The notes under the pieces are model-generated. The model was not told the DNA's origin and ran no database searches. It saw only the letters and a list, made by a program, of their open reading frames with translations. DNA of 46,094 bases, from NCBI GenBank assembly GCA_030683605.1, contig JAUXPL010000046.1:1-46094 (forward strand), in the 5' to 3' direction. Below are positions 2,971 through 42,700 of the stretch, one piece after another (positions within the stretch are counted from its first letter, which is position 1; each line of letters starts with the position of its first letter). Source of the stretch: Candidatus Altimarinota bacterium. Lineage in GTDB: Bacteria > Patescibacteriota > Gracilibacteria > BD1-5 > UBA6164. A program made the position numbers and the translations under genes.

Positions 2971-2978
2971 AAAAAATA

Positions 2979-4902: not shown

Positions 4903-4908
4903 ACAATA

Positions 4909-5357: not shown

Positions 5358-5378
5358 GTTTTTTATAAAAAGAAAATA

Positions 5379-5855: not shown

Positions 5856-5876
5856 ATTTTTATAGGTTATTAAATA

Positions 5877-16463: not shown

Positions 16464-17744
16464 TTAATTTATAACTCCACTCATAACTAATTCATCTCAA
16501 ATATATACTGCACATATTTGCCCAGATGCTATAGCTCTTTGTTTATCTTTAAATTCTACTCTATATATATCATTTTCTTTATAAATAGTACAATCTTGAT
16601 CTGCTTGTCTATATCTTATTTTGCATTTTGCTGATAATCCCTCCCCCTGCGGGTATACCCCAAGAGTACTTCCTTCGGGACGCTCCCTTTGAAATAGGGA
16701 GAAATTATCTTTTATACCATGTTTTAAAGGTAGTGGACATAAAAAATGAAATTCTTTTACAAATAATTTATCATCATATAATTCTAAATCGCTCGTTGTT
16801 CCTACTATTATTTCATTTTTTTCTATATCTTTTTTTACTATAAAAACTGGTTCTTTTTGACCTCATAAATCTAGTCACTTTCTCTGACCAATAGTATAAT
16901 AAAATACTCATTTATGTTCTCATAATACTTTTCAAGAAGTATCTAGTATTTTACCTGGTTTTGGGTCTATTTTTTTCTCTAAGAATGTAGTTAAATCTAC
17001 TTTTCATACGAAACATATTCACTGACTGTCTTTTCTATTTGCATTTGGTAATCATGCTTCTTGAGCTATTTGTCTAACTTGTGATTTTTCATATTCTCAT
17101 ATTGGAAAAAGTGCTTTTGATAATTGGAATTGATTAAGTCAAGCTAAAAAATATGATTGGTCTTTATTTGCATCTACTCATTTTAGGAGATGGAAAAGCT
17201 CCCCCTCAGTCCCCCTCAATTCCTGCCCTCACTCAGTCTCTCCAAATTCTAGCCCTCACTCAGTCTCTCCCAAAGGGAGAGAAGTAGCTACAGTTAATTG
17301 GTCTATTCCCTCTCCCATTGGGAGAGTGTTATGGTGAGGGCTGTATTTTGAATACTTTGAGGTAGTTATCCTAGCATAGTGTCACATAGCAATTCAGTCA
17401 AATCAGTGTGCTAATGCTTCGTCCAAAAATACTTTGAATTTCACTTCACTATTACACATGATATCAGGATTTGGAGTGATTCATTTTTTATATCATTCAT
17501 ACATATAACCAAGTACTTTTTCAGCATAGTCTTCCCTATAATCAAAAGTAAAAAAAGGTATATCCAAATACTTAGCTACTTTTTTAGCTTCTTCTATATC
17601 ATCACGTGTAGGACAATATTCTCATTCTGGTGCTAAATAATTTATCATAAATCAAGCCGTGACATCATATCACTGCTTTTTTAATAAATATGCGCTTACA
17701 GCACTATCTACTCAACCAGATAATCAAACTAAGATTTTTTTCAT
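16464..17744 (-). CDS. mnmA: tRNA 2-thiouridylase MnmA with two in-frame repeat insertions
   Basis: A 426-aa enzyme that thiolates U34 of Lys, Glu and Gln tRNAs. It shows the PP-loop LSGGVDSAVSAY (residues 8-19), tRNA-contact GHYARI (121-126), nucleophile Cys98 in MCNSEVKF and the second catalytic Cys244 in GICF. Normal MnmA is about 360-370 aa. The excess lies in residues about 135-184 (THHNTLPMGEG-like, LPLGETEGG repeats) and 350-370 (QRERPEGSTLGVYPQGEG), both encoded by GC-rich palindromic repeats that keep the frame. They sit in surface loops of the family, so activity may survive. Confidence 0.95.
16636..16706 (-). repeat. GC-rich repeat inside mnmA (C-terminal loop)
   Basis: Contains CCCTCCCCCTGCGGG and TTCCTTCGGGA/GCTCCC palindromes. 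It encodes about residues 346-370 of MnmA without a stop and uses GGN glycines, unlike the rest of the gene. Confidence 0.6.
17187..17345 (-). repeat. GC-rich repeat cluster inside mnmA (N-terminal domain loop)
   Basis: Tandem copies of GCCCTCACTCAGTCTCTCC-like units and CTCTCCC/GGGAGAG palindromes encode about residues 134-186, including two copies of a GETEGG peptide. It sits between the conserved GHYARI and the GVDANKDQSYFL motif. Confidence 0.65.
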
Positions 17745-18350: not shown

Positions 18351-19337
18351 ATGATTAATATGGTTACTACTAATTCAAAACAAATGACTACTGGAAAAGC
18401 ATTTGAATATGCTTTACTAACTCAATTTGAAGAAAAATTGAAATATAAAACAAATATTGAAGTGATTAAAAATTCTTCATTTCATATTGCTAAAGGATGT
18501 TTTGAAAATACAAGCAAAATAGAACAAAGTGATTATTTACTAACAGCTAGCTTTGCAGTTAATTTTCTTATGGATATTGAACCGAGATTATCAAATGATG
18601 TTGGAATAAAAGATATTCTTCAACTTGAAATATTGTCTGATGATCATGGAAAATCTGGTGATGTTAGAGATGTACTAGCAATTAGATTATTACAAAAATG
18701 GGAAATTGGTGTTTCTGCTAAAAATAATCATAATGCTGTAAAACATTCTCGTTTATCACATTTAATAGATTTCGGTGAAAAATGGTTAGGTGTAAAAGTT
18801 TCAAAAGAGTATTTTTATACAGTTACTCCTATTTTTCAAAGTTTAGAAAAGTTAAGAAAAGAGAGTAAAGCAACAAAAAAATGGAGTGAATTAGGAGATT
18901 ATCATACTTCTGTATATGTTCCAATTTTAGAAGCATTCATGAAAGAACTAAAAAATCTTAATGAAAATAATGATAATATTCCTTCAAATCTTGTTTCTTA
19001 TTTGATAGGAAACAAAGATTTTTACAAGGTAATAAAAAGTAAAAATATAGTAGAAATACAAGCATATAATATAAATGGAACTTTGAATTTACCATTTGAT
19101 AAAATTGAACCAAAATATAAAACACCAAAAATTCCATTGCCAACAGAAATAATTGATATTTCTTTTAAAGAAAATAGTAATACAACTGTCATAATAACCA
19201 TGAATAATGACTGGACTCTGTCTTTTAGAATACACAATGCAAGTTCAAGAATAGAATCATCACTAAAATTCGACATAAATCTTTTGAAATCTCCAAAAAA
19301 GTTATTCAAAAATACTTTAAATATTAGCAAAGATTAA
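18351..19337 (+). CDS. Type II restriction endonuclease, HaeIII family (probable GGCC specificity)
   Basis: A 328-aa protein with SGDVRDVLAIR and WEIGVSAKNNHNAVKHSRLS, the conserved block of HaeIII-type endonucleases. It is close to HaeIII itself in length and sits directly before a methyltransferase strikingly like M.HaeIII. All of its roughly 11 glycines are GGN and the frame is open under the standard code, unlike the host genes around it, which points to recent acquisition. ATG at 18351 is used; an ATG at 18360 (MVTTNSKQ) is an alternative. Specificity GGCC is inferred from the methyltransferase match. Confidence 0.85.
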   Translation: MINMVTTNSKQMTTGKAFEYALLTQFEEKLKYKTNIEVIKNSSFHIAKGCFENTSKIEQSDYLLTASFAVNFLMDIEPRLSNDVGIKDILQLEILSDDHGKSGDVRDVLAIRLLQKWEIGVSAKNNHNAVKHSRLSHLIDFGEKWLGVKVSKEYFYTVTPIFQSLEKLRKESKATKKWSELGDYHTSVYVPILEAFMKELKNLNENNDNIPSNLVSYLIGNKDFYKVIKSKNIVEIQAYNINGTLNLPFDKIEPKYKTPKIPLPTEIIDISFKENSNTTVIITMNNDWTLSFRIHNASSRIESSLKFDINLLKSPKKLFKNTLNISKD

Positions 19338-19339
19338 TT

Positions 19340-20416
19340 ATGAAAATAATATCATTATTTACTGGTGCTGGTGGTCTTGATCTTGGTTTTCATAAAGCCG
19401 GTTTTGAGACTATTTGGGCAAATGAATACGACAAAACGATTTGGGAAACTTTTGAACACAATTTTCCAAATACTTTTTTAGATAAAAGGAGTATTGTGAA
19501 TGTTCCTAATTCTGATGTGCCAGAATGTATGGGGATTATCTGAGGTCCTCCGTGTCAAAGCTGGAGCGAAGCAGGAGCTGGAAGAGGAATAAACGATAAA
19601 AGAGGTCAACTTTTTTTTGAATACATAAGAATTTTAAAAGAAAAAGAACCTTTATTTTTTCTTGCTGAAAATGTTTCAGGCATTTTATTACCAAAACATA
19701 AAGATGCTTTTCAAAATATATTAAATGAATTTAAATCTCTAAATTACAATGTTTCCTATTTTCTTTTGAATGCGAATAATTATGGAGTTCCTCAAGATAG
19801 ACAAAGGGTCATCATCGTAGGGTATCATAAAAAAATGGTGAAAATGTTTGCACCTCCAAAAGAAATATTACCAAGACCAATTTTAAAAGATGTAATTTGG
19901 GATCTAAGGCTTGCAAAACCTGCAAAAGACAAAAACTATGCAAACGATATTTGTGATCTCCAATGTTCAAATCATGAATATATGAATGGTGGATTTTCTA
20001 CTATTTACATGTCAAGAAATCGTGTCAGAAGTTGGGATGAGCCGAGTTTTACCATTCAAGCAGGAGGTCGTCATGCTCCACTTCACCCACAAGCCCCAAA
20101 AATGCAATTTATAGAACAAAACAAAAGAATTTTCGTCCCTGGAAAAGAAGATTTATACAGAAGACTTTCCGTTCGTGAATGTGCCAGAATACAAACTTTC
20201 CCTGATAATTTCCTGTTTAAGTATAAAAGTATCGCTGATGGTTACAAGATGATCTGAAATGCCGTGCCAGTAGAGTTTGCAAAACACTTAGCAAATGTGA
20301 TTTATAAAGATGTTTCTGAATATTTGAAACTTCATCAAATGCAAAGATCAGAGCTTTTGGAAAAAAAGAAAGTTTTTGTTTCAAAAGAAGTGAAGAAGGA
20401 TTTAGTGGAAGTTTAG
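19340..20416 (+). CDS. DNA (cytosine-5) methyltransferase, M.HaeIII type
   Basis: A 358-aa C5-methyltransferase protecting host DNA from the endonuclease 2 bp upstream. Motif I is SLFTGAGGLDLGF, motif IV GGPPCQSWSEAG with the catalytic Cys, motif VI FFLAENVSG, motif VIII QDRQRVIIVG, and motif X DGYKMIGNAVPV. The target-recognition region (STIYMSRNRVRSWDEPSFT) closely follows M.HaeIII. Of about 22 glycines only two are UGA: the first Gly of GGPPCQ (19541-19543) and the Gly of IGNAVP (20255-20257). Both are invariant in the family, so the gene needs code 25 to be functional. Confidence 0.95.
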
Positions 20417-20435
20417 TTTTTTTAAAACAAAAATT

Positions 20436-21392
20436 ATGAAGATTTTTTTTGAATATCTAAAATCCTTATTTACTCAATGGTATGTTTACATAGTATTTAT
20501 ACCAGAGTTTCTAGATTTAATATCTGCATATTTTCCAGAAAAATATCATTTTCAAATTCCAGTTTTTTATACTTGATTATTTTTAATAATAGTTTTTGTT
20601 TATGCAAATTTTAAAATTTGGAAAAAAACACTTTATAAAAACAAGTCTCCTAAAATTATCATTGATTATGATTTATCATCATTCAATATTGTTTATTTGG
20701 AAATTAAAAATATAGGAAATGATTATGCAAAAAATATAAAAATTACTTTTGATCCAGATTTAGAAGATAATGGTGAAAAAATAAACGATAAAAAATTCTT
20801 AAAAAACATTCCATTACTTGAACCTATATCTTTAAATCAAAGTAAAAAAATAAGATTCTTTTTTGGAACTTTTCTTCAAGAAAAGTATTTACAAACATTT
20901 GACGTAAAAATTAGTTATTCAGATATAGAAGGAAAAAATAAATTTTCAGAGACTCAAATAATAGATTTATCTTCATTTATTGGCACCTCACCTCAAAAAC
21001 AAGAAAATGAAATAGTAAAAGAACTAAAAAATATCTCTGGACATTTAAAAGACTTAAAAGATAATTCTAAAAAAAATATTGAAACTTTAAAAAATGGTAT
21101 AAATATAAGAAATTCTAATCTTAATAGTTATTCATATGATGAAATTAAATCTGTACTAAAAAATATTTTGCAATATGGAAATAAAGAAGATTTATGGTTA
21201 AATCCTCATATATATGATACAAAACAAATTATAAAATTATTCAGAGAAAAAATACTTGCAAAAAAAGATTTAGATGAAAATGATAAGAAAATTATAGAAC
21301 AAATAAATATTTTACATAAATATCAATTTCATTGTGGTGCAAATGATAAATTTGATACTTCAATTCAAGAGTTGAGAAAGTTAATATGATAA
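20436..21392 (+). CDS. Two-TM protein with cytoplasmic C-terminal domain, unknown
   Basis: A 318-aa protein with two hydrophobic segments near the N-terminus (about residues 15-35 and 45-66). A beta-rich domain (LEIKNIGNDYAKNIKITF, an Ig-like or transmembrane-associated fold) and a lysine-rich helical C-terminus follow. Only two UGA glycines occur, one in the second membrane segment and one as the last residue before TAA. It lies 20 nt after the methyltransferase and before the first attC-like site, so it probably arrived with the restriction locus. Family not recognised. Confidence 0.7.
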
Positions 21393-22416: not shown

Positions 22417-22755
22417 ATGAAACAAATAACTTGGGATGAATTCCAAAATGTAGAATTAAGAGTTGGTACAATTATTAATGTAGAAGATTTCCCTGAAGCA
22501 AAAATACCTGCATACAAAATAACTGCAGACTTTTGAGCAGAAATAGGGATTAAAAAATCTAGTGCTCAGATAACAGTATTATATACTAAAGAAGAATTAT
22601 TAAACAAACAAATAATATGAGTAGTGAATTTCCCTATTAAACAAATAGGTCCTTTTATGTCTGAATTTTTAGTTACTTGATTTGTAAATTGAAACTGAGA
22701 AGTAATATTAGCAGTGCCTGATAAAAAAAGTATAAATTGAACTAAATTAGGATAA
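22417..22755 (+). CDS. csaA: CsaA-type tRNA-binding-domain protein
   Basis: A 112-aa protein made of one EMAP/tRNA-binding OB fold. It begins MKQITWDEFQNVELRVGTII and includes AYKITADFGAEIGIKKSSAQIT, VVNFPIKQIGPFMSEFLVTG and EVILAVPDKKSINGTKLG, all typical of CsaA. CsaA is a dimeric tRNA-binding protein with reported chaperone-like export activity. Its last 38 codons and following 41 bases are repeated at 33417-33574. UGA glycines are frequent, so the gene is resident in this lineage. Confidence 0.9.
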
Positions 22756-22796
22756 ATTCCTAAACAATCTTAAATTTTACATTATTTAATTAATTT
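22639..22796 (+). repeat. 158-bp direct repeat, left copy (3' end of csaA)
   Basis: Begins AAACAAATAGGTCC inside csaA and ends in the A+T-rich spacer after it. It matches 33417-33574 over 158 bases with 4 mismatches and no gaps. Confidence 0.9.
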
Positions 22797-22839
22797 ATAT
22801 AATTATTCAAATAATTAAAACTAATTTTTTTTTAAAATT

Positions 22840-23126: not shown

Positions 23127-23540
23127 ATGAAAAAAAAATATGTTGCTTGTGCATTATTACTTAATAATAAAAATAAACTTCTTATTCAAGATAGAAAATG
23201 AATTTCTAAATACTGAGAAGAATGGTCTTTTTTTTGATGAGGTATAGAAAAATGAGAAAATTCAAAAGAGGCATTAATAAGGGAAATACAAGAAGAATTA
23301 TGATATGATATTTCAAATTGGAAAATTCTTTATCTATGAGAAATAGTTCACTATATTAAGACCATTGATATAGAATATCATAGATTTTTATATTGAATAA
23401 AAATACCTAATAATATAGAAAACTTTTATGATAATGAATGAAGTTGAGCTGTATTTTTTTCTTTAGATGAGGTTAAAAAATTAAAATTTAATACAAATAT
23501 ATTAGCAGAAATTATGCAATTAGAAAATAACTTTATTTAA
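23127..23540 (+). CDS. Nudix hydrolase (1 of 3)
   Basis: A 137-aa Nudix protein whose box reads GGIEKGENSKEALIREIQEELGY, fitting GX5EX7REUXEEXGU. The metal-binding glutamates are present in REIQEELG. The closing region VHYIKTIDIEYHRFLYG carries the variable substrate face, so the nucleotide or other substrate cannot be told. Glycines in the box are UGA codons. It is followed by an attC-like palindrome (site B), which would make it a single-gene cassette. Confidence 0.9.
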
Positions 23541-23709
23541 AAATTCAAGCTCTGTGGAACTCTCTCTGGACTATCGTCCAGCCCTTCTTTTTTAAAATTT
23601 AGAAACAAAATAATCTTTTACAAAAAGAAAAATGCTTTTACAAAAAGAAAAATCCAAAAGAAATACGGTAAACCCTCGTTGCACTCTCGCACATACTTCG
23701 CTCGGGTCT

Positions 23710-23797
23710 GACAACAGCTTCTATGAGGTTCGCTCGTTGCACTTCGCTCTCCCATATCCCGCTTAAGCGGGACATCTCATAGAAGCAAATGTTATAC
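23710..23797 (+). repeat. attC-like palindromic site B
   Basis: GCTTCTATGAG (23717-23727) pairs with CTCATAGAAGC (23776-23786). Inside is a second hairpin TCCCGCTTAAGCGGGA (23757-23772). The left end has GACAAC and the right end CAAATGTTATAC, with GTT as in integron cores. It shares GGTTCGCTCGTT and ACATCTCATAGAAGCAAA with site A. Confidence 0.5.
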
Positions 23798-23834
23798 ACA
23801 ATTCAAAAAAATATTTTATAAATATACTTAGCTT

Positions 23835-24215
23835 ATGAGAATAGCAATTAATTCAGCAATTATAAATAACAATAAAGAAATATTACTTGTAAAAAAACGT
23901 GATACTTGGATTTTGCCATGATGAAAACCTGATGAATGAGAAAGTGATTTAGAATGTTTAAATAGAGAAATAAGTGAAGAATTAAATTGAGCAAAGTTAA
24001 GAAATACACAATTTTACAATATTTTTGTATGACAAACTCCTTATAAATGAGATCAATTAGAAGCTAGAGTATATTTTGCAGAATTAATAACAGATATATT
24101 AAGTGCTTCAGCAGAGTTATCAGAAGCTAAGTTTATTAAAGATTTTGATAATTACAAAATTTCTGATATAACCCTTAAAATTTTAAACTGATTAAAAATA
24201 ACGTGAAATCTATAA
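23835..24215 (+). CDS. Nudix hydrolase (2 of 3)
   Basis: A 126-aa Nudix protein with the box GGKPDEGESDLECLNREISEELN. The terminal Gly-hydrophobic of the box is replaced by NG. The N-terminus RIAINSAIINNNKEILLVKK and LPGGKPDEGE resemble MutT/DIM-type small Nudix enzymes. It stands alone between attC-like sites B and C, with 37 bases before its start, so it has the shape of an integron cassette. Substrate unknown. Confidence 0.9.
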
Positions 24216-24246
24216 AATATATTTTTTGAACTCAAGGTGTCGTTGT

Positions 24247-24313
24247 ACTTCGCTCTCCCATATTCTTCTTCGCTAAAGCTACGAAGAACATCTCATAGAA
24301 GCAAACGTTAGGC
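24247..24313 (+). repeat. attC-like site C, left half missing
   Basis: Contains TACTTCGCTCTCCCATAT as in site B, an inner TTCTTCG/CGAAGAA hairpin (24266-24288) and ACATCTCATAGAAGCAAACGTTAGGC. The final GTTAGGC (24307-24313) is a perfect integron core (GTTRRRY). The matching left arm CTATGAGG is absent. Confidence 0.5.
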
Positions 24314-24378
24314 AATATCTACTTTTTGTTTTACACAGTATCATCTTGAATACTGAAAATCAGCGAAACCAAAAACTT

Positions 24379-24405
24379 TTTTGCCCTATCGGGCAATTTT
24401 ATTTT
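24379..24405 (+). terminator. Terminator between attC-like site C and the radical SAM cluster
   Basis: TTGCCC/GGGCAA hairpin with loop TATC, followed by TTTTATTTT. It isolates the cluster from the Nudix gene upstream. Bases 24406-24504 contain no gene. Confidence 0.6.
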
Positions 24406-24504
24406 GGGGAGGGAGAAAAAAGGAACAATGATTTTTAGAAAAAAAGTTGTATTTAAAACAAAAATTAGTATAAAGTCAATAATTTATTTTATAAATTTTG
24501 TAAT

Positions 24505-26055
24505 ATGGTAAATTGAAAACTTATGTTGATCGTACCAAATGGTACTTCCCCTGAGTGAAGAGATGTAAGAAATCATGTACCATTAGGAGCAATTAGTGTT
24601 TTATCAGAAGTAAAAAAGGCTTGTTATGATGTTTTGTTATTAGATAGCGTATGAGAGTCTCGTAAACAATATTATTTATGAAATACTGATTCATATTTTC
24701 ATGATGAAGAAATACAATGAGATATTTTTAGGAAAACTTGATTAGAAGTAGAAGAAATTTTAAAAAGAATAGCAAAAGAAAAACCAACTGAAATATGAGT
24801 GAGTTGTTTAACGATAGTAGATAGATCTGAAACATTAAAATTAATAAGAAACATTAAAAAAGAATTTCCTAATTTACCAATAATATTATGATGACACGAA
24901 GCAACTCAATCTTATAAAGAAATATTATGATTTTGAGAATATGAAGTTGAAAAAATACCAGAAGTTGATTATATTGTTGTATGACCTTGACAGCCTGTAG
25001 TTGTAAAACTACTTGAATATTTAAGATGAAATTTAAATAAAGATAATTTAGAATGAGTTGCTTTTGTAGAAAATTGAAAACTACAATTTATTCCTCAATT
25101 TTGAAAATTTAATCCTGATAATTATGCATTGCCTGATTATAGTTTATTACCACAAGTAAGTGTTTTATGAAGGGAAAAACCTATTGATATTTATTCCTTG
25201 ATTTGAAATACACATGCTTGAGAAGTTAAAAATTTACTGTGATTGAGTAACAATGAAATTGTTTCTTATTTAGCATTAATAACATCTTATTGATGCTGAT
25301 TCTCATGTACTTTTTGTGATAATCCTCCAGATTTAATTCGTTATTCTCCAGAAAATGTTATTAAAATGATTGAACAATTTAAAGATCTATATTGAGTTGA
25401 CTATATTGATTTTATGGATAATAATTTTTGATGATGAAATAGAGAATCTAGAGAAATTGTTTTTGAAATATTAGAAAGATTGAAGTGAAAAAATCTAAAT
25501 TTCTGATTTTCAAATGGATTAACATTTGAATCAATGGCAAGAGAAGATTTTAGATTATTAAAAGCTTTAAAGTCAGCTTGAAATCTTAGACATCTTGCAT
25601 TTCCTATAGAAAATTGAAATGATAGAGTTTTAAAAATGGTTAAAAAACCACATACATTAAAAATGGTAAATGAAGTTTTAGAAGCTTTTAAATCTATTTT
25701 TGAAGACGAATTAGATCATATAAATAGAGAAGCTTTTTTTATATGATGATTTCCTGATACAAGATGATTACCAGCTGAAACTCCCGAAGAAGTAGAAAAA
25801 AGTATACAATTAATGGAAAAACTTTTAAAAGAATGAAAACTAGACCAAGCAATTTTTCTAACTTTATCTCCAGTAACTAATTCTTATAGGCAAGTTTGGA
25901 GACAAAAACATCCAGATTGAGCATTTGAAAAAGCACTTTTTTCTAAATGAACAGATTTATGGCCTTATTGAATGGATTTTATAAAAAGTATACATGAAAG
26001 AGTAAAATTAATTAATCAAAGATATTGAAAAAGCTCAATCACTAGAAAACTTTAA
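24505..26055 (+). CDS. Cobalamin-binding-domain radical SAM protein
   Basis: A 516-aa protein. Residues about 5-175 resemble the B12-binding Rossmann domain (LMLIVPNGTSPEGRDVRNHVP, EIGVSCLTIVDR, PIILGGHE, VDYIVVGPG). Residues about 255-480 form a radical SAM barrel with the iron-sulfur motif C264GFSC268TFC271. Such enzymes use SAM and often methylcobalamin for methylation or rearrangement. The canonical B12 DXHXXG motif is not evident. Start ATG 24505 is in frame with a second ATG at 24523. It opens a cluster with a second radical SAM protein, a PanD-like protein and a Nudix enzyme. Confidence 0.9.
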
Positions 26056-26073
26056 TTTTATAAAAAAATTTAT

Positions 26074-27330
26074 ATGAAAACTATAAGATTAGAAAATACA
26101 AGTTATCCTAAAATGGATAATAAAAAAAGGAATAAAATATTGGTATGAGATGATGCAACTTGATATATAAAAGCCATATCAATTCCTGAGGTAGAAATTA
26201 ATGAAAGTGAGGATTTGGAAATATTAATAGACAGAATTAAATTACTACTATGAAATATTTTAGATTTCTGAAATATTTGAAATTATAGAATAATTAATAA
26301 CTCTCCTATAGAATGATGATATTCAGCTCCTTTTAAAATTTATTTAGATTTATCTGATAAATGTCAATTATCTTGTAAATTTTGTTTAAGTTCTTCATCT
26401 ATTGAATGAACCAATGAATTAAACATTGAACAACTGAAAAGAATAATACAAGAGATGTGAGAATTGTGAGTTTTTAGAGTAAAATTGTGATGATGAGAAC
26501 CATTAATATACCCTTATATTTTTGATGTTATTAAATTATTAAGAGATAATCATATATTTGTCTCGTTAAGTACAAATTGAAAGAAAATGAATAGAAAAAT
26601 TGCACAATTATTAAAATTATATTGAGTAAAAGTTTCTGTTAGTATGGATTGAAATTTAGAAAATAATGACTATTTAAGATGAAAATGAACTTATAAACAA
26701 GCCATTAATGCTATAAAAATATTAAAAGAAGAATGAGTTGTTAATTTATCTATTAGAATGAATATAATTCCTGTGAATTTTGAAGATATATCTCATATTG
26801 TAGTATTAGCAAAATCACTTTGAATAAAAGCAAAATTTTGTTTTTGTAGACCATCTTGAAGAGCAAGTATTGATAGTTCTATGTTAGTTTGATTTGATAA
26901 TTCAAAATACTATTATGAAGTTTTAAAATATCTAAACTCTCCTGAAATTTTACCATTTGTTTCAATAGATGAATCTATGATGTTTGAACAACCAGAAGAG
27001 TTAAAAACTTATATTTGGTGAGAACAAATATGTTGAGCAGCTAATAGATCTATGCATATAGACAGCTCTTGAAAAATATCTCCATGTGTATATATGTGAA
27101 AAAGTTATCAACAATGAAAAATATATGAAGATTGAAGTTTAATTAACTTTTGGAGATGAGAAATTTGAAATGCTTTTGCAAAAATGAGAAATTTACAAGA
27201 ACCAGAATGATGTAAAACTTGTGATAGATTATGTAAATTTGAATGTCCAGCAAATAGATCACATTTTAATGGTTGAGATACAACTTGACCAGACCCAGTA
27301 TGTTTAAAATATATTACTAATAATTTATAA
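26074..27330 (+). CDS. Radical SAM / SPASM-domain protein
   Basis: A 418-aa protein with the radical SAM cluster motif C97QLSC101KFC104 in DLSDKCQLSCKFCLSSS, a GGEPL SAM contact (KLGGGEPLIYP), and a C-terminal SPASM region with clustered cysteines (EQICGAANRS; ISPCVYMG; EGCKTCDRLCKFECPA) able to hold auxiliary Fe-S clusters. SPASM enzymes usually modify peptides or proteins, so a small peptide partner is expected, but none was found nearby. It begins 18 nt after the previous gene and ends 16 nt before the PanD-like one, indicating one operon. Confidence 0.92.
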
Positions 27331-27346
27331 TTTAACTTTAAATAAT

Positions 27347-28144
27347 ATGGAAAAATTAGTTAAAAGAAGTGCTATACATAATATAGTAATAAATAAATGT
27401 AACTCTAGTATATCTAATTGAGAAATTAATGAATGACTAGTGATACCTAAAAAAATATTAAATGCTTGTGATATAAAAAATGGAGAACAAATTATTGTTA
27501 CAAAAATTTATTGAGATAATTGGATAAATAGAGTAAAAACTTTTGTTATAGAGTGAAAAGATGATTGAATAGTAGAAGCAAGATGAAGTTTAGCAAATTT
27601 TTATAAAGAATGAGAAATAGCTTGTATTGTAACCTTTACATTATTAAATGAAGAACAATTCAAAGATTATATAAATGATAAATACCCTATTTTTGATATT
27701 TGATTTAATCCTGATACAAATAAAGATAATTTAGAATTTAATCTAAATATTGAATTTAGAACTTTCAAAGAATTTAATGTAAAAGAATATTGAAAATATT
27801 TAGAGTATAGAAAAAATATTAGTAGAGTACAATTATCTACTTTGATATTATGACTTAAAGTAAATCAAACTCATCCAGATTGTTTACAATGAAGTGCAGA
27901 GTTACCTTGAAAAATTATGGATAAATGAAACCTATCAAGATATGAATGAGTAGCTGTTTATAATGTATCAAAATGATGAGCATCTGAAACTTATGCTGTT
28001 CCTATGCCTGATAAAGTTGTTATGACTACTTGAGCTATGGCAAAATTTGCTAAGGTGTGAGAAAAAGTTAATATAGCTTCTTTTGTTATTAGTAAAGATG
28101 CCATAATTCCAAGTATTGTTTTTACTAAAAATAATGATATTTAA
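27347..28144 (+). CDS. Tandem PanD-like (pyruvoyl decarboxylase-fold) protein
   Basis: A 265-aa protein with two successive domains that each follow aspartate 1-decarboxylase (about 125 aa each). Domain 2 (about 165-250) keeps the self-cleavage Gly182-Ser183 (LQGSAELPGKI) and Thr215-Tyr216 (SETYAVPM), and ends VGEKVNIASFVI like PanD's VGDIVIIASFV. Domain 1 (about 5-97) keeps an Arg62 and Thr65 (INRVKTFVIEG) but has no serine at the cleavage site (NEGLVIPKKIL). PanD makes beta-alanine from aspartate via a serine-derived pyruvoyl group. The shared active site here may be built from both halves. Substrate unknown. Confidence 0.8.
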
Positions 28145-28165
28145 TTTTATTATTAATACTAAATT

Positions 28166-28807
28166 ATGGATAAATATATAAATGATCCTGAAGCAGATTT
28201 ATCAACTGCATTAGTTACTTTAACTGATAATTGATTTTGTTTTATAATCCAACCTGAAGATAGATGGTGAAAAAAAGATAATTGAGATACTTTAATTCCA
28301 ATTTGATGAGTATGATGAAAATTAGAAAAATGAGAGACTCTTGAAGAATGCCTTAAAAGAGAAGCATTAGAAGAAATAGGTGTAAATATAGAAATACTTG
28401 AAGTTTGAAAGCAATTTTTAGTTATAGATCCTAATCAGATAGTTTTTGAAAGTAATAATACTGAAAATAATGTAACTCCTTTATTTGTTTATCGTAATCC
28501 AAGAAGTGAAAAATGAAGAAAACCGTTCACAAATGTTTTTGTGTATTTAGCTAAGCTTAATGTCAAAGAGATTAAATTGATAGATAATCCAGCTATTATA
28601 GAGTTAGAAGAGAATATCTTACAGCAAATTATTTCACAAGAAATTACTATTGAACAAGCCTTACATCAATGATGAAAAGTTAAATCTAAAATAAACTTAC
28701 CACAAAATTGAATTTTATTACCTCTTCCTACAGTTAAGTGAATAATTAAATTTCTTTCAGTTGTATCTGAAGATGTAAAATCTAAAATAAAACATATATT
28801 ATCTTAA
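28166..28807 (+). CDS. Nudix hydrolase with C-terminal extension (3 of 3)
   Basis: A 213-aa protein. The Nudix box is GGKLEKGETLEECLKREALEEIGV, near residue 55. It is preceded by GFCFIIQPEDRWGKKDNGD and followed by an 80-residue C-terminal extension with many charged helices (TIEQALHQGGKVKSKINLPQN). The gene is last in the cluster, 21 nt after the PanD-like gene and before a terminator, so it is likely co-expressed with the radical SAM proteins. It could process or detoxify a nucleotide intermediate; that is inference. Confidence 0.88.
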
Positions 28808-28811
28808 CTTT

Positions 28812-28834
28812 ATCCGACTATCGTCGGATTTTTT
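28812..28834 (+). terminator. Terminator of the radical SAM/PanD-like cluster
   Basis: ATCCGAC and GTCGGAT form a 7-bp G+C-rich stem with a TATC loop, followed by TTTTTT. A degenerate copy occurs at 30566-30583. Confidence 0.75.
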
Positions 28835-28855
28835 CTTACCCCATAAAAAAGCTCG

Positions 28856-28905
28856 TTATCACTCGCAAAAAAGATTTTGGTTTATTCTGAAAATCATCTA
28901 TAATA
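28856..28905 (+). promoter_or_regulatory. Promoter module, copy 1
   Basis: TTGGTT (28877-28882) and TATAAT (28899-28904) are 16 bases apart. The whole 50-bp segment from TTATCACTCGC to TATAATA is repeated with few changes at 30602-30651, in front of another acquired-looking gene. Confidence 0.6.
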
Positions 28906-28978
28906 CAAAAAATCAACAAAAACAAAAAGTAGAAGTAAAGGGTCGTTACACTTGATTTTTATTATTAAGGAAATATTT

Positions 28979-29464
28979 ATGAATAATCTAAACGAGCATA
29001 TTGCTGTTTACAAAGAACAACTTGCAAAAGGTAATATAAAAATTGCTTACGATGGAATTGTAAATTTTACAACGAACTTAAAAACTATTTTTTCAAAAAA
29101 CTTGTCTGATAGATTTTCATTCAATGGAATATTTAAAGGATATATGGATTATACATATTTCTATTTCACTAATGATTATTTAAATGATAGAAAATTAAAG
29201 TTTGGACTTGTTTTGAATCATAATGAAATGAGATTTGAGTTATGGCTCTTGGGACAGACGAAAAATATTCAAAAAGAATATTGGGATTTACTAAAATCAA
29301 GCAAGTGGAATAAAGATAAAACAAAAATGCCAAAATATGCCGTATTAGAATCTGTGCTTATAAAAAATCCAGATTTCAATGATTTAGATTTACTTTCTCA
29401 AAATATTGAGAAAAATTTGATAAAAGTTTCTGATGAGATTATTAGTGAATTAAAAAAACTCTAA
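28979..29464 (+). CDS. Conserved hypothetical protein (DUF7000-like)
   Basis: A 161-aa soluble protein beginning MNNLNEHIAVYKEQLAKGNI. GIFKGYMDYTYFYFTNDYL, GLVLNHNEMRFELWLLGQT and SSKWNKDKTKMPKYAV match a conserved family I recall from Firmicutes (DUF7000); function unknown. ATG 28979 is preferred over 28952 because AAGGA lies 8 bases before it, an unusually clear ribosome binding site here. No UGA glycine occurs; all are GGN, unlike the neighbouring cluster, which suggests recent arrival. Promoter copy 1 lies just upstream. Confidence 0.8.
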   Translation: MNNLNEHIAVYKEQLAKGNIKIAYDGIVNFTTNLKTIFSKNLSDRFSFNGIFKGYMDYTYFYFTNDYLNDRKLKFGLVLNHNEMRFELWLLGQTKNIQKEYWDLLKSSKWNKDKTKMPKYAVLESVLIKNPDFNDLDLLSQNIEKNLIKVSDEIISELKKL

Positions 29465-29528
29465 TATAAGGAATTTTGAAAAATAAAATTAAAGCTCTTG
29501 AAAAAAAATAAAAAATTAAATATAATTT

Positions 29529-29951
29529 ATGGATAAATTTGAACACAAATATGGAATAATAGAAGATGAAAAAGTGAAAGCTTTTCATAAAAGTAGAAGA
29601 ATGTTTTGTATATATAAAAATGAACTTTTTGTTGCAGATTCTAATTCCCCTTATTCTCATGCTTCTTGGTTTGAGAGAGAATGATGGATGACAAAAGAAA
29701 AAGATGAATTAATTAATAAAATAACAAGATGAATAATAGACAATAAAGGTAACATATACTTTTACATTGGTTATGATTTTAGAATAAATGACGATATTGA
29801 AAAAGTATTTTTCTCTCATTTGAATATACTTAATAATAAAGTAAAACTTAATATTGATGCTTTTATTTACGGTTGATTAATAAAAGCTGAACCTGGAAAA
29901 ATTTGGCCACCAGATAAAGAATATGGTAAAGTTAGTAAATATTTAAAATAA
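29529..29951 (+). CDS. Hypothetical protein (140 aa)
   Basis: Starts MDKFEHKYGIIEDEKVKAFH. NSPYSHASWFEREGWMTKEK is followed by ITRGIIDNKGNIYFYIGYDF and AEPGKIWPPDKEYGKV. It has a mix of UGA and GGN glycines and no membrane segment. An alternating beta/alpha pattern with conserved-looking aromatic residues is visible, but I cannot assign a family. It lies 64 nt after the DUF7000-like gene on the same strand. Confidence 0.65.
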
Positions 29952-29954
29952 ACT

Positions 29955-30528
29955 ATGAAACAATATACATTCATACAAACTTTAATAAAGTTTTTATATC
30001 CGATGAAGGAAAAGAAAGAACTTTTATATTTTTCACTTACATATTTCTTGTCAGACGCTATTATAAATATATGACTTTTATATTTATTTAAAATTATAGT
30101 TGATGACATTACACTTTGAATAAATATTTATTTTTATTTATTTATAGTTTTTGTATTTATTAAACTTATAATAATTGTGTATTTTAGAAATTTTTTTGGA
30201 ATATTTTATCCAGAAATGAGAAAATATTTTTATAACAAATATCTTAATGAGTATTTACAATTAGATAATAATAAATCGGAACTTCACGGAACTGGGAAAA
30301 TTATAGCAGTAGTTGAAAAATCAACTAATGTTTGGGTTGATCAATATGAATAATCTTTTTAAGGACAAAACAGTTATAATTGTTGCTCACAGACTTCAAA
30401 CTGTTAAACATGCTGATAAAATCATTGTATTTGAAAATTGAAAAATAATTGAAGAGTGAAATCATTATGATTTATTAAACATAAAATGAAATTACTATAA
30501 AATGATTGAATTACAAAGCTGATTCTAA
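29955..30528 (+). pseudogene. ABC transporter (permease-ATPase fusion) remnant with internal deletion
   Basis: The 5' piece (132 aa, 29955-30353) resembles the N-terminal membrane helices of an exporter half-transporter (LIKFLYPMKEKKELLYFSLT). The 3' piece (60 aa, 30346-30528) is the tail of an ABC ATPase with the H-loop histidine (KTVIIVAHRLQTVKHADKII, then FENGKIIEEGNHYDLL). Walker A, signature and most of both domains are missing. The pieces overlap by 8 nt in different frames, so an internal deletion joined them. Non-functional as a transporter. Confidence 0.8.
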
Positions 30529-30601
30529 ATAATATATATTTTAAAATAGAAATTATTTAACTTTTTCCGACTATCGAAAGATTTCCTTCACCAAAATATA
30601 A

Positions 30602-30651
30602 TTATCACTCGCAAAAAAAATTTTGATTTATTCTAAAAATAATCTATAATA
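30602..30651 (+). promoter_or_regulatory. Promoter module, copy 2
   Basis: TTGATT (30623-30628) and TATAAT (30645-30650), spacing 16, lie 46 bases before the DUF389 start. Homologous to the module at 28856-28905, including part of the terminator sequence before it (CCGACTATCG at 30567-30576). Confidence 0.6.
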
Positions 30652-30696
30652 AGAATAAAATTACAAAAATAAATATAAAATTAACAAATACTGAAA

Positions 30697-32043
30697 ATGA
30701 AAAATAAAATTTTAAATTTTATTAGTCTTAATAATGGTGAAGAAGAACAAAAAAAAGTAATAGATAACATAAAATCAAATGTTTCTTTTAGAGGTGCAAA
30801 CCTATGGATATTAGCTTGTGCAATTGTTATTGCTTCGATAGGTTTAAATGTCAATTCAACTGCAGTTGTTATAGGAGCAATGCTAATTTCTCCACTTATG
30901 TGACCAATTGTAGGAGCATGACTTGCTTTGTCTATTTATGATTTTGAATTACTTAAAAGATCAGGAAAAAATTTATTTATAGCAACTATAGTAAGTTTAA
31001 TTGTAGCAACAGTATATTTTTATTTAAGCCCATTTAAAGAAGCACAATCTGAACTTCTTGCAAGAACTTCACCAAATATTTATGATGTTCTAATCGCCTT
31101 TTTTGGTGGTTTAGTGGGTGTAATTGCAATTACAAGGGTAGAAAAAGGTAATCCAATACCAGGTGTAGCGATAGCCACTGCATTAATGCCACCACTTTGC
31201 ACAGCTTGATATGCACTATCGATGGGTAATTTTTCATATTTCTTTGGTGCTATTTATTTATACTCTATCAACTGTTTTTTTATTTGTATATCTACTTTTT
31301 TTATTCTCAAATATTTAAAATATGAACCACTAGAAGAATTAAATCAAAAGTTTGAAAAACAGATAAAATACGGTATTTCTATACTAATTTTAATAATGAT
31401 TATTCCTAGTTTCTATTTAGCAAATAGACTTCTTCAAGAAAATAAATACAATCAAAAATTAGAGCAATTTATAAATATAGAGTTGATAAATAAAGGTCAT
31501 ACAATAATTTACAAAAGAACAAATTTCAATAAATCCCCTAAAGTAATTGAGCTTGCCTTTTTAAACAAAAAATTTAATGAAACTGAAACTGAATTTCTAA
31601 ACCAACAACTCTCAGAATACAATATTGACAATACAGTAATAGAAATAAAACAAGATACAAAAGATTTAAAAGGTGAAATATTGAATGAAATAGGAATTCA
31701 AAACAAAAAATTTACTGAAAAAGATCTTTTAATAAATAACTTGCAAACAGAGTTAAACGAATATAAGGTTTCTAATACGGAAATATTAAAAGAGATTGCA
31801 ATACTATTTCCTGAGATGAGTAATGTATCAATGGGTAAACATCAAATCAATACAAACACTGATAGTTCAAAGTTAGTTACAATTTTTTTGTATCAAACTG
31901 ATAATACAATAAATTTAGATACTAATAAAATTGAAAAATGGTTAAGCCAAAAATTACAGACAGAAGATATTGAATTAGTGAAAAACAATAAGGTAAAAGA
32001 ATCACAGGATATACAAGAAATTTTAGATTCAGAAGCTGAGTAA
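30697..32043 (+). CDS. DUF389 family membrane protein
   Basis: A 448-aa protein. After a short soluble start come five or six membrane helices with the family motifs [39 protein letters not shown] and CTAGYALSMG. A soluble Glu/Lys/Asn-rich C-terminal half follows. DUF389 proteins are of unknown function, possibly transporters. Three UGA glycines interrupt the standard-code frame (30901, 30919 and 31207 region), all at family-conserved glycines; the remaining glycines are GGN. That is the pattern of a gene being adapted to code 25. Promoter copy 2 is upstream. The following 206 bases show no gene. Confidence 0.9.
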
Positions 32044-32249
32044 AGCTTTGTTTATAATAGTTAGTTTTGTGTTTCTAAGTACTCAAAATCAATTATAAGC
32101 AAAATCTATGTATAATAATTACATCTTTTCCTCCTATCAAAACATATCAAGTACACTCATTCCGAAAACTACGATCAGTTGCCTACATTATATTCAATAT
32201 GATTGATGACTAAAAAGAAGAGGTAATTATAAAATTTTACTTATCCAAT

Positions 32250-32795
32250 ATGACAAATATAACTTTTATTACAGGCAATCAAAGTAAAGCAGATTACTTA
32301 TCGAAATATCTTGGTCATCCCCTAGATCATGTCAAACTAAATTTGGATGAAATTCAATCTACTGATCTAAATGAAATTGTAGAACATAAAGTTAGACAAG
32401 CTTATTATATAATTCAGAAACCGGTTATTGTAGAAGATGTTTCTTTAGAATTTAATGCACTTGGTGGTTTACCTGGTCCTTTCATAAAGTTTTTTGTAGA
32501 TAAGGTTCCATTTGAGTTAATATGTTCTATGATACCTAGTGATTTAACAAGAAAAGCAAAAGCAAGATGTGTTTTTGGTTATTTTGATTGAACAGAGTTA
32601 AAATTATTTGAAGGAAGTTTAGATGGAGAAATTGCAACAGCTCCTTCAGGTGAAAATGGCTATGGGTGGGACAAGATATTTATTCCACAATGATATACTA
32701 TCACAAGAGCATCGTTATGTGAAGAAGATGACCAAAAAACATATTTGAAAATTAAACCATTTGCAAAACTGAAAAAATTCCTAGAAACAAAATAA
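32250..32795 (+). CDS. Ham1/RdgB-like non-canonical purine NTP pyrophosphatase
   Basis: A 181-aa protein starting ITFITGNQSKADYLSKYLG (the T/SGN-K motif that binds nucleotide). VIVEDVSLEFNALGGLPGPF carries the catalytic Asp/Glu, and PSGENGYGWDKIFIPQGYT is the family's GYGxDPIFxPxGY motif. The enzyme removes ITP, dITP and XTP by hydrolysis to monophosphates. Two UGA glycines (FDGTEL and PQGYT) against several GGN again suggest a partly recoded import. It may complement the Nudix enzymes in nucleotide sanitation. Confidence 0.9.
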
Positions 32796-32874: not shown

Positions 32875-33426
32875 ATGAAATACACAGAATTTTGAAGCCT
32901 TTATGAACATTGAATTGATTATATGATACTAGATATTAATTGATATGAAGACATATGAGATGCTCTCAAAATGGATAAATATACTTGATTGAATTTGAAT
33001 TGTTTACCAAAAGATTTAAAAGAAAAAATTCTAAAATCAAAACCTGTAGATAATATAATAGTTAATTGAGCTAATTACTGAATAGTTTTAGCTGAAATTT
33101 TTAAAGAATTGTGAATAAAATCATATAATATTGTTACAGATAATAATGATAGAAATATTGAAAGTCTAAAAAGACATTGAGTTATTTATATTTGAAGTAT
33201 AAACGATTTTTTAGATCTAAATATACAATCTATTAATTGACACTTTAATTGCTTTAGATATGGTTTTATTAATAGAAATTCTTTTACTTGAAACTTAAAC
33301 TTGCCATATGTATTATTTTATGAAAATGAAGATTCAGAAAAATCTATAAATAAATTAATCGAATCTGTTAAGTTAAATAATCAAAAAACATTAAATACTT
33401 ATCCAAATAAATTATGAAACAAATAG
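32875..33426 (+). CDS. Hypothetical protein (183 aa) ending in the csaA repeat
   Basis: Starts MKYTEFGSLYEHGIDYMILD with alternating beta/alpha elements (DNIIVNGANYGIVLAEIFKE; YNIVTDNNDRNIESLKRHGV) that suggest a Rossmann-like fold. Glycines are nearly all UGA. Its last codons (LGNK, stop TAG 33424-33426) lie inside the right csaA repeat, so its 3' end was probably set by the recombination that created the repeat. Family not recognised. Confidence 0.7.
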
Positions 33427-33532
33427 GTCCTTTTATGTCAGAATTTTTAGTTACTTGATTTGTGAATTGAAATTGAGAAGTAATATTAGCAGTGCCTGAT
33501 AAAAAAAGTATAAATTGAACTAAATTAGGATA
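33414..33532 (+). pseudogene. csaA remnant with internal deletion
   Basis: ATGAAACAAATA, identical to the first four codons of csaA, is joined directly to the codons for GPFMSEFLVTGFVNGNGEV through to the stop at 33530-33532. In the intact gene AAACAAATA occurs both at codons 2-4 and at codons 75-77, so a deletion between these 9-base repeats explains the structure. The 39-residue frame lacks most of the OB fold. Confidence 0.8.
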
Positions 33533-33574
33533 AATTCCTAAACAATCTTAAATTTTACATTAGTTAATTAATTT
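33417..33574 (+). repeat. 158-bp direct repeat, right copy (3' end of csaA)
   Basis: Ungapped match to 22639-22796, with mismatches at four positions. The two copies stand 10,778 bases apart in the same orientation and enclose the radical SAM/PanD-like region. Confidence 0.9.
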
Positions 33575-33596
33575 TAATACAGAATACAAAAAATTT

Positions 33597-37151: not shown

Positions 37152-38138
37152 TTAAATATCTTTCTTTGTTAAAAAATCTCAAAAAATGTCTTTAAAAACA
37201 CTAATAGCAAGTTCTTGGTTTATAAAAAATGGTGATGTAGAAACAGTAATAATTGAAGCTTTTTTTGCTGCATCAAGTACTACTTTTTTCTTTAATTCAT
37301 AGTCTATATAATCCAAATCTGGCTGAAAAAAATCTAGATCTAAATTGAGAATGATCCCATTTCACTTAGTTTCTTCCTCCATTCAGACCTCACCCCCTGC
37401 CCCTCTCCTTAGAGGAGAGGGGTGATTGTATAATAATTTATTTATTCATTCTATTCCCTCTCCTCTAAGGAGAGGGCTAGGGTGAGGTTGGTCTAAGTGT
37501 CTAGTGTGAGGGCTATTTTGTGTAAGAATATTATGGTCTAAATATTCTATCAAATTACTTTCATTTCTGATTTGAATTATTTCTCAGATTATTCATTCTT
37601 CTTTTGCTGGAATAATATAATCACCTACATTTAATACATTATTTGTGAAATCAAACACTTTTTGTAAATCATAAGAATCCGGCTTCAATAAATGTTTATC
37701 ATTATCCCTAGTATCTGCATGCTCATCTATATGTACAAGTATATTATTGTCTCAAATCAATCACTCACTTCTAGCTAAATACCAAAAATAATAAGCATGA
37801 TTATGATTATCAAAGAGATAAATACTTTTATTAACAATATTAGATTTATTTGTATAGGGACTCCCCTTGTGGTTGTCCTGAAAATTAGCTAATTTTATCT
37901 TATAAAAATTTTTTAATCAATAATTAGTAGATAATTTATCATCAAAATCATAGTCTTCAAATGCAACCTTATTTTCCCTCTCCTGTAGGAGAGGGCTAGG
38001 GTGAGGTTGAAGCTCTATTTGTTCTAAATCATCTATTTCTATGAGATTTGGAACATATATTTGTTTATTTGTTCTAGTCTCATATGAAAAAGCATTGTTT
38101 CATACAGCTTCGGTTATATAAAAAGGTTTTATATACAT
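37152..38138 (-). CDS. UPF0489-like protein with repeat insertions
   Basis: A 328-aa protein. IYLFDNHNHAYYFWYLA, ILVHIDEHADTRD and GIILNLDLDFFQPDLDYID form a metal-binding Asp/His pattern characteristic of the UPF0489 family, which looks like an arginase-fold relative. Two or three GC-rich insertions encode QPHPSPLLQER (about residue 44) and QPHPSPLLRGEGIEG with NHPSPLRRGAGGEVG (about 215-250). They interrupt the protein between conserved blocks without breaking the frame. Biochemical role unknown. Confidence 0.75.
37384..37512 (-). repeat. GC-rich repeat cluster inside the UPF0489-like gene
   Basis: Two opposed CCTCTCC/GGAGAGG palindromes enclose about 40 A+T-rich bases, the same layout as the pair bracketing DUF559 in recQ but with almost nothing between. 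It may be an empty or deleted version of that unit. Confidence 0.6.
37976..38013 (-). repeat. Second GC-rich repeat in the UPF0489-like gene
   Basis: CCCTCTCCTGTAGGAGAGGG palindrome followed by CTAGGGTGAGG, encoding the PHPSPLLQERE peptide near residue 45. Confidence 0.65.
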
Positions 38139-39769: not shown

Positions 39770-42700
39770 ATGAAAAGACTAAAAAAAATTGTTGCGAAAA
39801 TATCAATTGTTGCAATATTATTAAATACTACATTAGCTGCTATAGCATTAGAAACACAATATAATTTTGATAATAATAATACATCAAATGTATATGCTTT
39901 TAATTGAGTTTCAAGCCCTAACTACTTGAATTGATCAAATTTAGATTTAACAAAATCAAATTCTAATATACTTAGATGGAGATGAAATTGAAATGGTTGG
40001 TGAATTGATTCATGAGAAAAATGAAATGACAAATTGGAAATAAATTCAAATGAAGCAATATGATTCAATTTATGAACAACTACTTCAACTGCATGATTTA
40101 ATATAAAACATGACAAAGATAATAAACATAATTATGAAAATTTTCAATTCAAAGCATTTGCTTCGAATTTTGCACCAGTTACAATTACTACAAGTTTTGA
40201 CAGTCATGATCAAGCTAAAACTAATGTAACTATAAAATCATCAAATCAATTTCAATATGTAGTGATGATTTGAAGTACTGATTGATTAAATATTTTATCT
40301 GATTCTGATGTAACTACTTGATGTTCTGGTGGTTCTACAGTATCTAATTTAACAAAAAAATGATTTCCATTAAGTACTTATATGTCAGGAAGTTATTTGA
40401 ATTTCACTCAAACTTCATTAGCATTTTGAGGTTCTCAAAATAATCCTATAGATTGGTGAATACAAACTTCAGCATGAGATAAATCAAGAGTAGATCCAAA
40501 TGAAGTATTTGCATTAGATTTTTGATCTACATCAGTAAAATCTAGTGTATATATAAAAGACTTAAATAATAGATGAACAAATATATGAGTAAATATTAAA
40601 GCATTTGATGTAAATTTACAAGAAATAACATGAATATCAAAAACTATATCAGCATCTTCTAATCCAGTAACTTGAAGTTTAAAAATAGATATAACTGCTC
40701 CAAGTGCATATAGATATATAACACTTAATCCAGTAGATTCTAATAATATATTTTCAGTTTATGATACTATAGATGTTTATGATTATAGTTGTGGTAAAAT
40801 GACTAATGATTTCAGACTACAAAATGAAAACTGACCTTTAAATGAACCTGGTGATCAAGTAAAATATTTTGTAGAAATATGAAACCCTTGAAATGTTGAT
40901 TTAACATGAATAAATGTAAATATAAATATACCTAGTCAATTTATAAATTTATGAAATATCATTATACCATCGTGATCAACAAATAACTCAAATACAAATA
41001 CTGTTTCTATTTCTGGAATAAATGTAGCAGTATGAACAACTAAATTAGTAACATATACTGTAAATGTTAATACATGAGTTTCTTGAAATATAGATACCTT
41101 AGTAAATGTTTCTGACTCAAATGAATGAGTTGCATGATGAACATGAACAATTGTATTTAATGTATGAACACCTGATATTACAAGTAATATTACAAGTTTA
41201 GATATAAACTGAGGAGATTTAGTTGCTTGAGATATAGTTGCTAATACATGAACAATAACAAATATTTGAAATGCTATTTGAAATGATGTAAATGTAACAA
41301 TTAACTATTGAACAGGTACTAGCTATCAATCGTGAAGTTTAAATTTCAATGAAGCTAGTTTAGATTGAACTACTATATGAAGTTCGATAATTTCATCTTC
41401 AATTACCATTAATGATACAAACAAAACTATAGTATTCACAATAAAAGATTTACCAGTAAATATTCCAGAAATAATCAGATTTAACACAATTGTAAATTGA
41501 ACATGATCTATTGTAAATAAATTAAATTTAAATATGGAATGATGATTTACACAAGAACAAACAAGTAATCCAATCATAATAACAACTACAAATCATAATC
41601 CTATCGCAAATGATGATAACTTTTCTACTTCTGAAGATACTCCTATAAATATAGATGTTTTATTAAACGATACAGATTCTGATAATGATAATTTAAGTAT
41701 TATTTCTGTAACATGATCTACTAATTGAACTGCTCTAATAAACTGAACATGAATTTTATTTACTCCTAGTACAAATTATTACTGAACATGAAGTTTTTCA
41801 TATACTATAAGTGACAATAATTGATGAACATCTACTGCTAATGTATATATTCTAATTAACTCTGTAAATGACAATCCTATTGCAAATGATGATAGTGCTA
41901 TTACACAAATGAATTGAAATGTAACAATATATGTATTATCAAATGATTCTGATATTGAAAATAATACACTTACTATTCAGTGAATATCAAATGAAACTAA
42001 CTGAACAGCAAATATATCTTGAACAACTATTATTTTCACTCCAAATACTGATTTTGTATGAACTTGAAGTTTTAGTTATACGATAAATGACTGAAATTGA
42101 TGAACAGCAACAGCTAATGTACAAATAACTATTACTAATTCTCCTGCAATAAATATATCTACTATAGCAAGTGATGATGTAATAAATATGATTGAACATA
42201 ATCAAAATTTAACTATAACATGAATAACTGTAAATGTAGAAGACTGAAATATTGTTAGTTTAGTTTTGAACTGAAATACATATACATGAACTGTAAATAA
42301 TTGAGAATATTCTATAAATGTAAATTCTTGAGATGTTTCAAATTTAGTAAACAACAATAATTATACAGTTTCTGCTAATGTATCTAATAGTTTAGATATA
42401 AATGCAACAGAATATACAAGAAGTATAAATGTAAAACTTACTCCTCCAGCTATAAAGATATTATCACCTAAATCATGAGAAATAATGATTACAGATAATG
42501 TATCTGGAACATGAACAAATGTATGAGATAATGTATATTTAACTTGAACTACAAATTTTTGAGATACTTTTAATTGTAACACAACAGTTTTATCAAATCT
42601 TACATGGAAATGTAATTTATGAATCTGAAATAATCATGACTGAAAAATTATTAGTATAGAATCAAGAGAATATGATATATATTGAAATTACTGAGATAAT

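Follow-up and report, generated by a model that had tools for sequence, protein, structure and literature searches.

A fused two-barrel variant of the PanD fold family in a radical-SAM gene unit, and a possible division of its active site between two halves

Introduction

What might a protein do that carries two aspartate 1-decarboxylase (PanD) barrels in one chain? The question is raised by a gene in the window, by which we mean the whole stretch of DNA analysed here (46,094 nucleotides, contig JAUXPL010000046.1 of a Candidatus Altimarinota bacterium). The initial annotation had read this gene as a fused PanD duplicate with complementary loss of active-site residues, and had suggested that its halves make a pseudo-heterodimer with one working site per pair and an altered choice of substrate.

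Results and Discussion

A gene read with TGA as glycine

Under the standard code, 18 in-frame TGA codons interrupt 27347-28144; under code 25, the code of Gracilibacteria and SR1 in which TGA specifies glycine, the same stretch is a single open frame of 265 aa running from ATG to TAA. Its glycines are encoded by 18 TGA codons and 1 GGN codon, a TGA/Gly ratio of 0.95 that is host-like and matches most of the window. The glycine preceding the presumed cleavage serine is one of these (Gly182, 27890-27892), and because this codon is a TGA, the gene is overlooked by standard-code gene calling. The parts of the gene are as follows.

27347..28144, + strand: fused PanD-like protein P0001, 265 aa, with TGA as Gly 18 times (code-25 frame and Pfam)
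27347..27670, + strand: half 1, aa 1-108, PanD barrel without the cleavage Ser; His11, Arg54 (R62) and Thr57 (T65) retained
27530..27532, + strand: Arg62 of half 1, the Arg54 equivalent
27671..27817, + strand: linker, aa 109-157, low confidence in the model; helix predicted for aa 145-156
27818..28141, + strand: half 2, aa 158-265, PanD barrel with Gly-Ser, T215 (Thr57) and Y216 (Tyr58); A212 (Arg54) and L168 (Lys9)
27890..27895, + strand: predicted cleavage site, Gly182 (TGA)-Ser183 (AGT)
27980..27982, + strand: Ala212 of half 2, the Arg54 equivalent

Two PanD barrels in one chain

The protein matches the Pfam family Asp_decarbox (PF02261) in two stretches, with an E-value of 7.6e-21 and 74.6 bits against a cut-off of 25. 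A local PanD profile, made from ten patescibacterial PanDs and the E. coli PanD sequence, gave 32.9 bits for half 1 (aa 3-103) and 46.1 bits for half 2 (aa 181-263); with the halves excised, the scores were 36.3 and 49.7 bits, and the top scores of 5000 shuffled sequences each were 13.1 and 11.5 bits, respectively. Structure predictions are in line with this. When half 1 was modelled separately, together with eight PanDs, it reached a mean pLDDT of 86.3, and its best structural match is 3oug (Z 15.8, rmsd 1.4, 99 residues aligned). Half 2, taken from the full-length model, where its ten-residue blocks have pLDDT values of 86-94 over residues 161-260, best matches 1ppy, the zymogen of the E. 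coli enzyme (Z 18.4, rmsd 1.2, 107 residues aligned); non-PanD barrels in both fold-match lists stay at Z 9.7 or below. The full-length model as a whole has a mean pLDDT of 62.7 and a pTM of 0.46 with no confident half-to-half arrangement; half 1 and the linker have low confidence in it, and the rows of its alignment are almost confined to half 2.

By prediction, each half is thus a double-psi barrel of the PanD type, as the initial annotation had supposed, and shares its fold with the known enzymes (PF02261, TIGR00223; E. coli 1ppy, M. tuberculosis 2c45, H. pylori 1uhe). The protein is a fused variant inside the PanD fold family. BLASTP gives no alignment of one half with the other, both are very long branches in a tree with 23 PanDs, and a clade of the two is neither rejected nor shown (p-AU 0.60).

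The gene unit and the pantothenate pathway

The gene is the third of four closely spaced genes, in the order B12-binding radical SAM, radical SAM/SPASM, fused PanD and Nudix, with gaps of 18, 16 and 21 nt, and the unit is flanked by two terminator-like hairpins.

24381..24396, + strand: terminator-like hairpin upstream of the unit
24505..26055, + strand: B12-binding radical SAM protein P0003, the first gene of the unit
26074..27330, + strand: radical SAM/SPASM protein P0002; closest to the mycofactocin maturase among named profiles, below cut-off
28166..28807, + strand: Nudix hydrolase P0004, the last gene of the unit
28812..28829, + strand: terminator-like hairpin directly after the Nudix gene

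Both radical-SAM proteins fall far under the cut-offs of the named NCBI families among the matches listed, the nearest being P-methyltransferase (71 bits, cut-off 575) and, for the SPASM protein, mycofactocin maturase (161 bits, cut-off 265). At 1e-20 the SPASM protein has no match in 349 of the 353 genomes of the class; one of the four that match is its own genome, and the matches in the other three are 27-30% identical. The B12-binding protein has no match in the 76 other genomes of the order. No convincing precursor peptide was found beside the radical-SAM genes; the only small upstream frame considered (24326-24511) was ruled out as a candidate, as it holds the terminator-like hairpin.

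The three plus-strand terminator-like hairpins found in a scan of 23500-29000 (23566-23581 and the two that flank the unit) share the loop TATC, which is perhaps a preferred terminator loop of the lineage.

A gracilibacterial cluster in a genome of the same family (L031 in G071, 1860-6113) similarly has, in tandem, a SPASM gene and two further genes that are radical-SAM-like, were named B12-type by eye and resemble those of the unit in size. The SPASM proteins of cluster and unit share 29% identity, and kinase-like genes, also named by eye, follow the cluster. Unlike the unit, this cluster has no PanD-like gene, and its accessory genes are different.

The fused protein is the sole PanD match of its genome (G000, 96.6% complete), in which neither PanC (pantoate ligase, PF02569) nor the CoaB family (PF04127) has a match; the same searches of control genomes found PF02569 in 9 of 14 and PF04127 in 14 of 14. 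The protein is therefore unlikely to act in vitamin B5 synthesis. It thus differs from PanD in context as well, being found without the pantothenate pathway and sharing its unit with two radical-SAM genes.

Active-site residues of the two halves

The residues were compared with those of 18 ordinary PanDs, from 10 patescibacterial genomes, 3 genome contigs, 4 viral contigs and E. coli, and the set was extended to 23 by five more from one patescibacterial class, the residues of which were read by eye. All 18 have Lys9, Ser25, Thr57, Tyr58 and Tyr22, while Arg54 and Asn72 are each present in 16 and His11 in 15; in the extended set Lys9, Ser25, Thr57 and Tyr58 are found in 23/23 and Arg54 in 18/23. 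Parts of the published work assign roles to several of these: Lys9 pairs with the substrate alpha-carboxylate (excerpt of PMC3314653), Thr57 is required for activation of the E. coli enzyme, and Asn72 contacts Ser25 in the zymogen (both from excerpts of PMC3975893).

Half 1 retains H11 and has R62 at Arg54 and T65 at Thr57, with A9 at Lys9, F66 at Tyr58 and R79 at Asn72; Ser25 is absent, and five additional residues stand ahead of the cleavage position. Half 2 has the cleavage pair G182-S183, T215 at Thr57 and Y216 at Tyr58, with L168 at Lys9, L170 at His11, A212 at Arg54 and T228 at Asn72. This agrees with what had been claimed for the two halves, namely that the second keeps Gly-Ser and Thr-Tyr and has Ala in place of Arg54, and that the first keeps the Arg and the Thr and has no cleavage Ser. 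Beyond the initial annotation are F66, the Asn72 replacements (R79, T228) and the finding that Lys9 and Tyr22, along with Asn72 and Ala75, are missing from both halves. Unlike PanD, then, the protein has two barrels per chain, neither half is complete, and Lys9 is lost in both. The cleavage site together with Thr57 is found in half 2 only, and of the substrate-binding pair, Lys9 is in neither half and Arg54 in half 1 only.

With four such residues gone from both halves, and with two radical-SAM genes in the same unit, one may ask if the protein is non-catalytic: the double barrel might bind the radical-SAM enzymes or act as their scaffold, and the Gly-Ser pair would then be a relic. Gly-Ser, Thr57 and Tyr58 are nonetheless retained together in half 2, and the title of PDB entry 3tm7 names a processed Asn72Ala mutant, so that, going by this title, Asn72 is dispensable for cleavage. 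We regard a non-catalytic role as rather improbable, though worth keeping in mind.

That the protein is an ordinary but divergent aspartate 1-decarboxylase producing beta-alanine seems very improbable to us. Its PanD profile match does exceed the Pfam cut-off, but it scores only 44.1 bits with the equivalog model TIGR00223 (panD), for which the NCBI cut-off is 106; Lys9 is in neither half, and the genome has no match to PanC or CoaB. Because of the equivalog score, the binding residues and the pathway context, we would not file it as aspartate 1-decarboxylase. The altered substrate choice proposed in the initial annotation fits the loss of Lys9 from both halves and a genome without PanC and CoaB matches.

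A possible shared interface

In PanD, an active site lies at every protomer interface (excerpt of PMC4410942). Among the residues named in a section of PMC3314653, a star marks Lys9 and Arg54 as contributed by the second subunit, and Pyr25, Thr57 and Tyr58 carry no star; parts of PMC6969166 likewise list Arg54* along with the backbone of Ala74 and Ala75 and describe Arg54Ala M. tuberculosis PanD as inactive. These excerpts bear out the premise that PanD sites lie between adjacent subunits, with Arg54 and Lys9 coming from the neighbour. Given this assignment, Arg62 of half 1 is the residue expected from a neighbour and lies on the half that would be that neighbour, and the split of residues fits one live and one decayed interface. 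Since the Arg54Ala enzyme is described as inactive, half 2 by itself would be expected to fail on aspartate.

We counted S25, T57, Y58, N72, A74 and A75 as own residues of an interface and K9 and R54 as partner residues, Asn72 being placed with the former because of its Ser25 contact in the zymogen. With half 2 providing the own residues and half 1 as partner, 5/8 are retained (Ser, Thr, Tyr, Ala74 and Arg); in the opposite interface, with own residues from half 1 and half 2 as partner, it is 1/8, with Ser, Tyr, Ala74, Arg and Lys absent (one-sided Fisher p 0.059). All four positions retained in one half only lie on the side predicted by a shared interface, for which the sign test gives 0.125 if either arrangement is acceptable. 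The complementary split between the halves is thus suggestive, but not proven, at the level of sequence. As a counterpoint, Lys9, present in 23/23 ordinary PanDs, and Tyr22 are lost in both halves, and with Lys9 missing the better of the two interfaces also departs from the standard PanD site.

A different view of A212 comes from the five single-domain PanDs among the 23 that lack Arg54 (L003, L004, L045, L046 and L047). They form one group in the tree, and one patescibacterial class accounts for them, with five of the seven PanDs found there lacking this residue. Like the fused protein, they belong to the PanD family by profile and have Arg54 replaced; unlike it, they are single-domain, keep Lys9, Tyr22 and Asn72 along with Gly-Ser, Thr57 and Tyr58, and have Gly-Pro-Pro after Asn72 in place of the Gly-Ala-Ala of the others. 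They are perhaps a PanD type with a different substrate. Since Arg54 is missing from 5/23 single-domain PanDs, A212 in half 2 does not by itself require a partner, and its loss alone is weak evidence for one.

Half 2 could accordingly be a pyruvoyl enzyme that works without a partner on a substrate not needing Arg54, with half 1 a degenerate barrel that fills the ring and Arg62 a relic. The Arg54-less clade, with its otherwise retained catalytic residues, speaks for this, as do the profile scores, by which half 2 is the better-conserved half. However, the Arg54-less PanDs have the Lys9 that half 2 lacks, the M. tuberculosis enzyme is inactivated by Arg54Ala (excerpt of PMC6969166), and half 1 shows no general decay, with its intact frame and confident fold. 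We therefore find a self-sufficient half 2 unlikely.

We favour the reading in which the protein is an asymmetric single-chain PanD. Two chains would form the standard ring of four barrels, in which the two kinds of half alternate; as each interface of a PanD ring takes the pyruvoyl, Thr57 and Tyr58 from one barrel and Arg54 from the next, only the half-2-to-half-1 interfaces would be complete. Cleavage at Gly182-Ser183 would leave the pyruvoyl on half 2, Arg62 of half 1 would reach that site in trans, and the two remaining interfaces of the ring would have decayed. Given that neither half has Lys9 and that no PanC or CoaB was found, aspartate for vitamin B5 is probably not what the enzyme acts on; more likely, its substrate would be an acidic amino acid or a related intermediate from the pathway in which the unit's two radical-SAM enzymes operate. 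We give an even chance to an asymmetric single-chain pyruvoyl enzyme with Arg62 acting in trans on a new substrate. In a more specific form, to which we hold only tentatively, the protein would be a built-in pseudo-heterodimer of a pyruvoyl half and an Arg-donating dead half, with two live and two dead sites per ring, in which the freed dead interfaces and the lost Lys9 would have allowed a new substrate, an intermediate in an undescribed B12/SPASM radical-SAM pathway of an epibiont-type bacterium. The shared-site mechanism of the initial annotation is, in our view, plausible but not established: Arg62 does lie on the right partner, but Arg54 is missing in 5 of 23 single-domain PanDs and the complementation reaches only p = 0.06.

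S-adenosylmethionine decarboxylase (AdoMetDC) is also pyruvoyl-dependent, though it belongs to a decarboxylase family other than PanD. In trypanosomes, a catalytically dead paralogue, the prozyme, activates this enzyme through heterodimer formation (excerpt of PMC5201418). The pairing of an active with a dead partner is alike in the two cases as a functional analogy only; AdoMetDC and prozyme come from two genes, and the activation is allosteric, not a sharing of active-site residues.

If our reading is correct, PanD went here from a symmetric homo-oligomer to an asymmetric single chain, shedding one class of interface, and the protein would be a compact test case of how a shared active site is divided after gene duplication. 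A pyruvoyl enzyme would, moreover, belong to a radical-SAM pathway, a combination not found in the portions of the literature searched.

The search for fused relatives

Homologues conserving the split, which could have strengthened the initial annotation, were not found: no fused PanD relative turned up in any collection searched, whether genomes, contigs, viral contigs, plasmids or phages. Among 77 genomes of the order, the protein matches only itself; among 353 of the class there are five matches, which are itself, an ordinary PanD (L012), two weak short matches (L014 and L015) and L013. The last was rejected as a relative, as TGA, TAG and TAA all occur in its frame and an open frame for PanD of at least 80 aa was not seen. 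PF02261 has matches in 10 of 379 genomes of the phylum, and the nine besides the one described here are each one open frame of 107-169 aa; in two further classes matches were found in 3/16 and 7/285 genomes, five of these ten being already in the phylum set. L046 has an open frame of 210 aa, in which the PanD part is single.

Of two scans of genome contigs with peptide patterns, the first gave no match and the second four ordinary PanDs, none of them fused. In viral contigs, queries with proteins of the window gave none, and queries with ordinary PanDs gave two and four loci; plasmids held no PanD match, and phages two PanDs. Scans of this kind depend on short peptides that match exactly or nearly so, and they apparently work without back-translation of Gly to TGA, so relatives may escape them. 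In the excerpts returned by a full-text literature search (PanD, fusion, radical SAM, Patescibacteria), no fused or tandem PanD was found.

An accessory segment and other features of the window

The radical-SAM/PanD/Nudix unit lies within 10.8 kb bounded by the two copies of a direct repeat.

22635..22801, + strand: direct repeat of 167 nt, left copy, made up of the 3'-terminal part of a tRNA_bind gene with downstream bases
33413..33579, + strand: direct repeat of 167 nt, right copy (96%), on the other side of the 10.8-kb segment

In G070 (locus L053), which belongs to the same genus, the flanking genes keep their order and match at 77-95% DNA identity. There is one tRNA_bind gene with a single copy of the repeat there, and ~1.4 kb of other genes replace the segment. 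This makes the unit accessory. The TGA/Gly ratio is 0.93-0.97 in the genes of the unit and 0-0.33 in the neighbours at 28952-32795, and this uneven use makes the segment resemble a mosaic; the richness of the unit in TGA glycine suggests that it has probably long been resident in a lineage where TGA is Gly. No recombinase was recognised among the Pfam-scanned proteins of the segment, a scan from which some small frames were left out.

Elsewhere in the window, the genes at 18351-21392, a HaeIII-type restriction gene, a cytosine methyltransferase-like gene (by eye) and an unknown gene, are scarce in TGA glycine (0-0.18) and are probably recent imports. The RecQ-type helicase gene at 11750-14608 has a DUF559 domain (118 bits) between DEAD and Helicase_C; GC-rich repeats occur near it and again at 17247-17339 and 37402-38006. 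Finally, 39770-44701 encodes a surface-type protein of 1643 aa that combines cadherin-like repeats with a C-terminal sortase domain in one chain.
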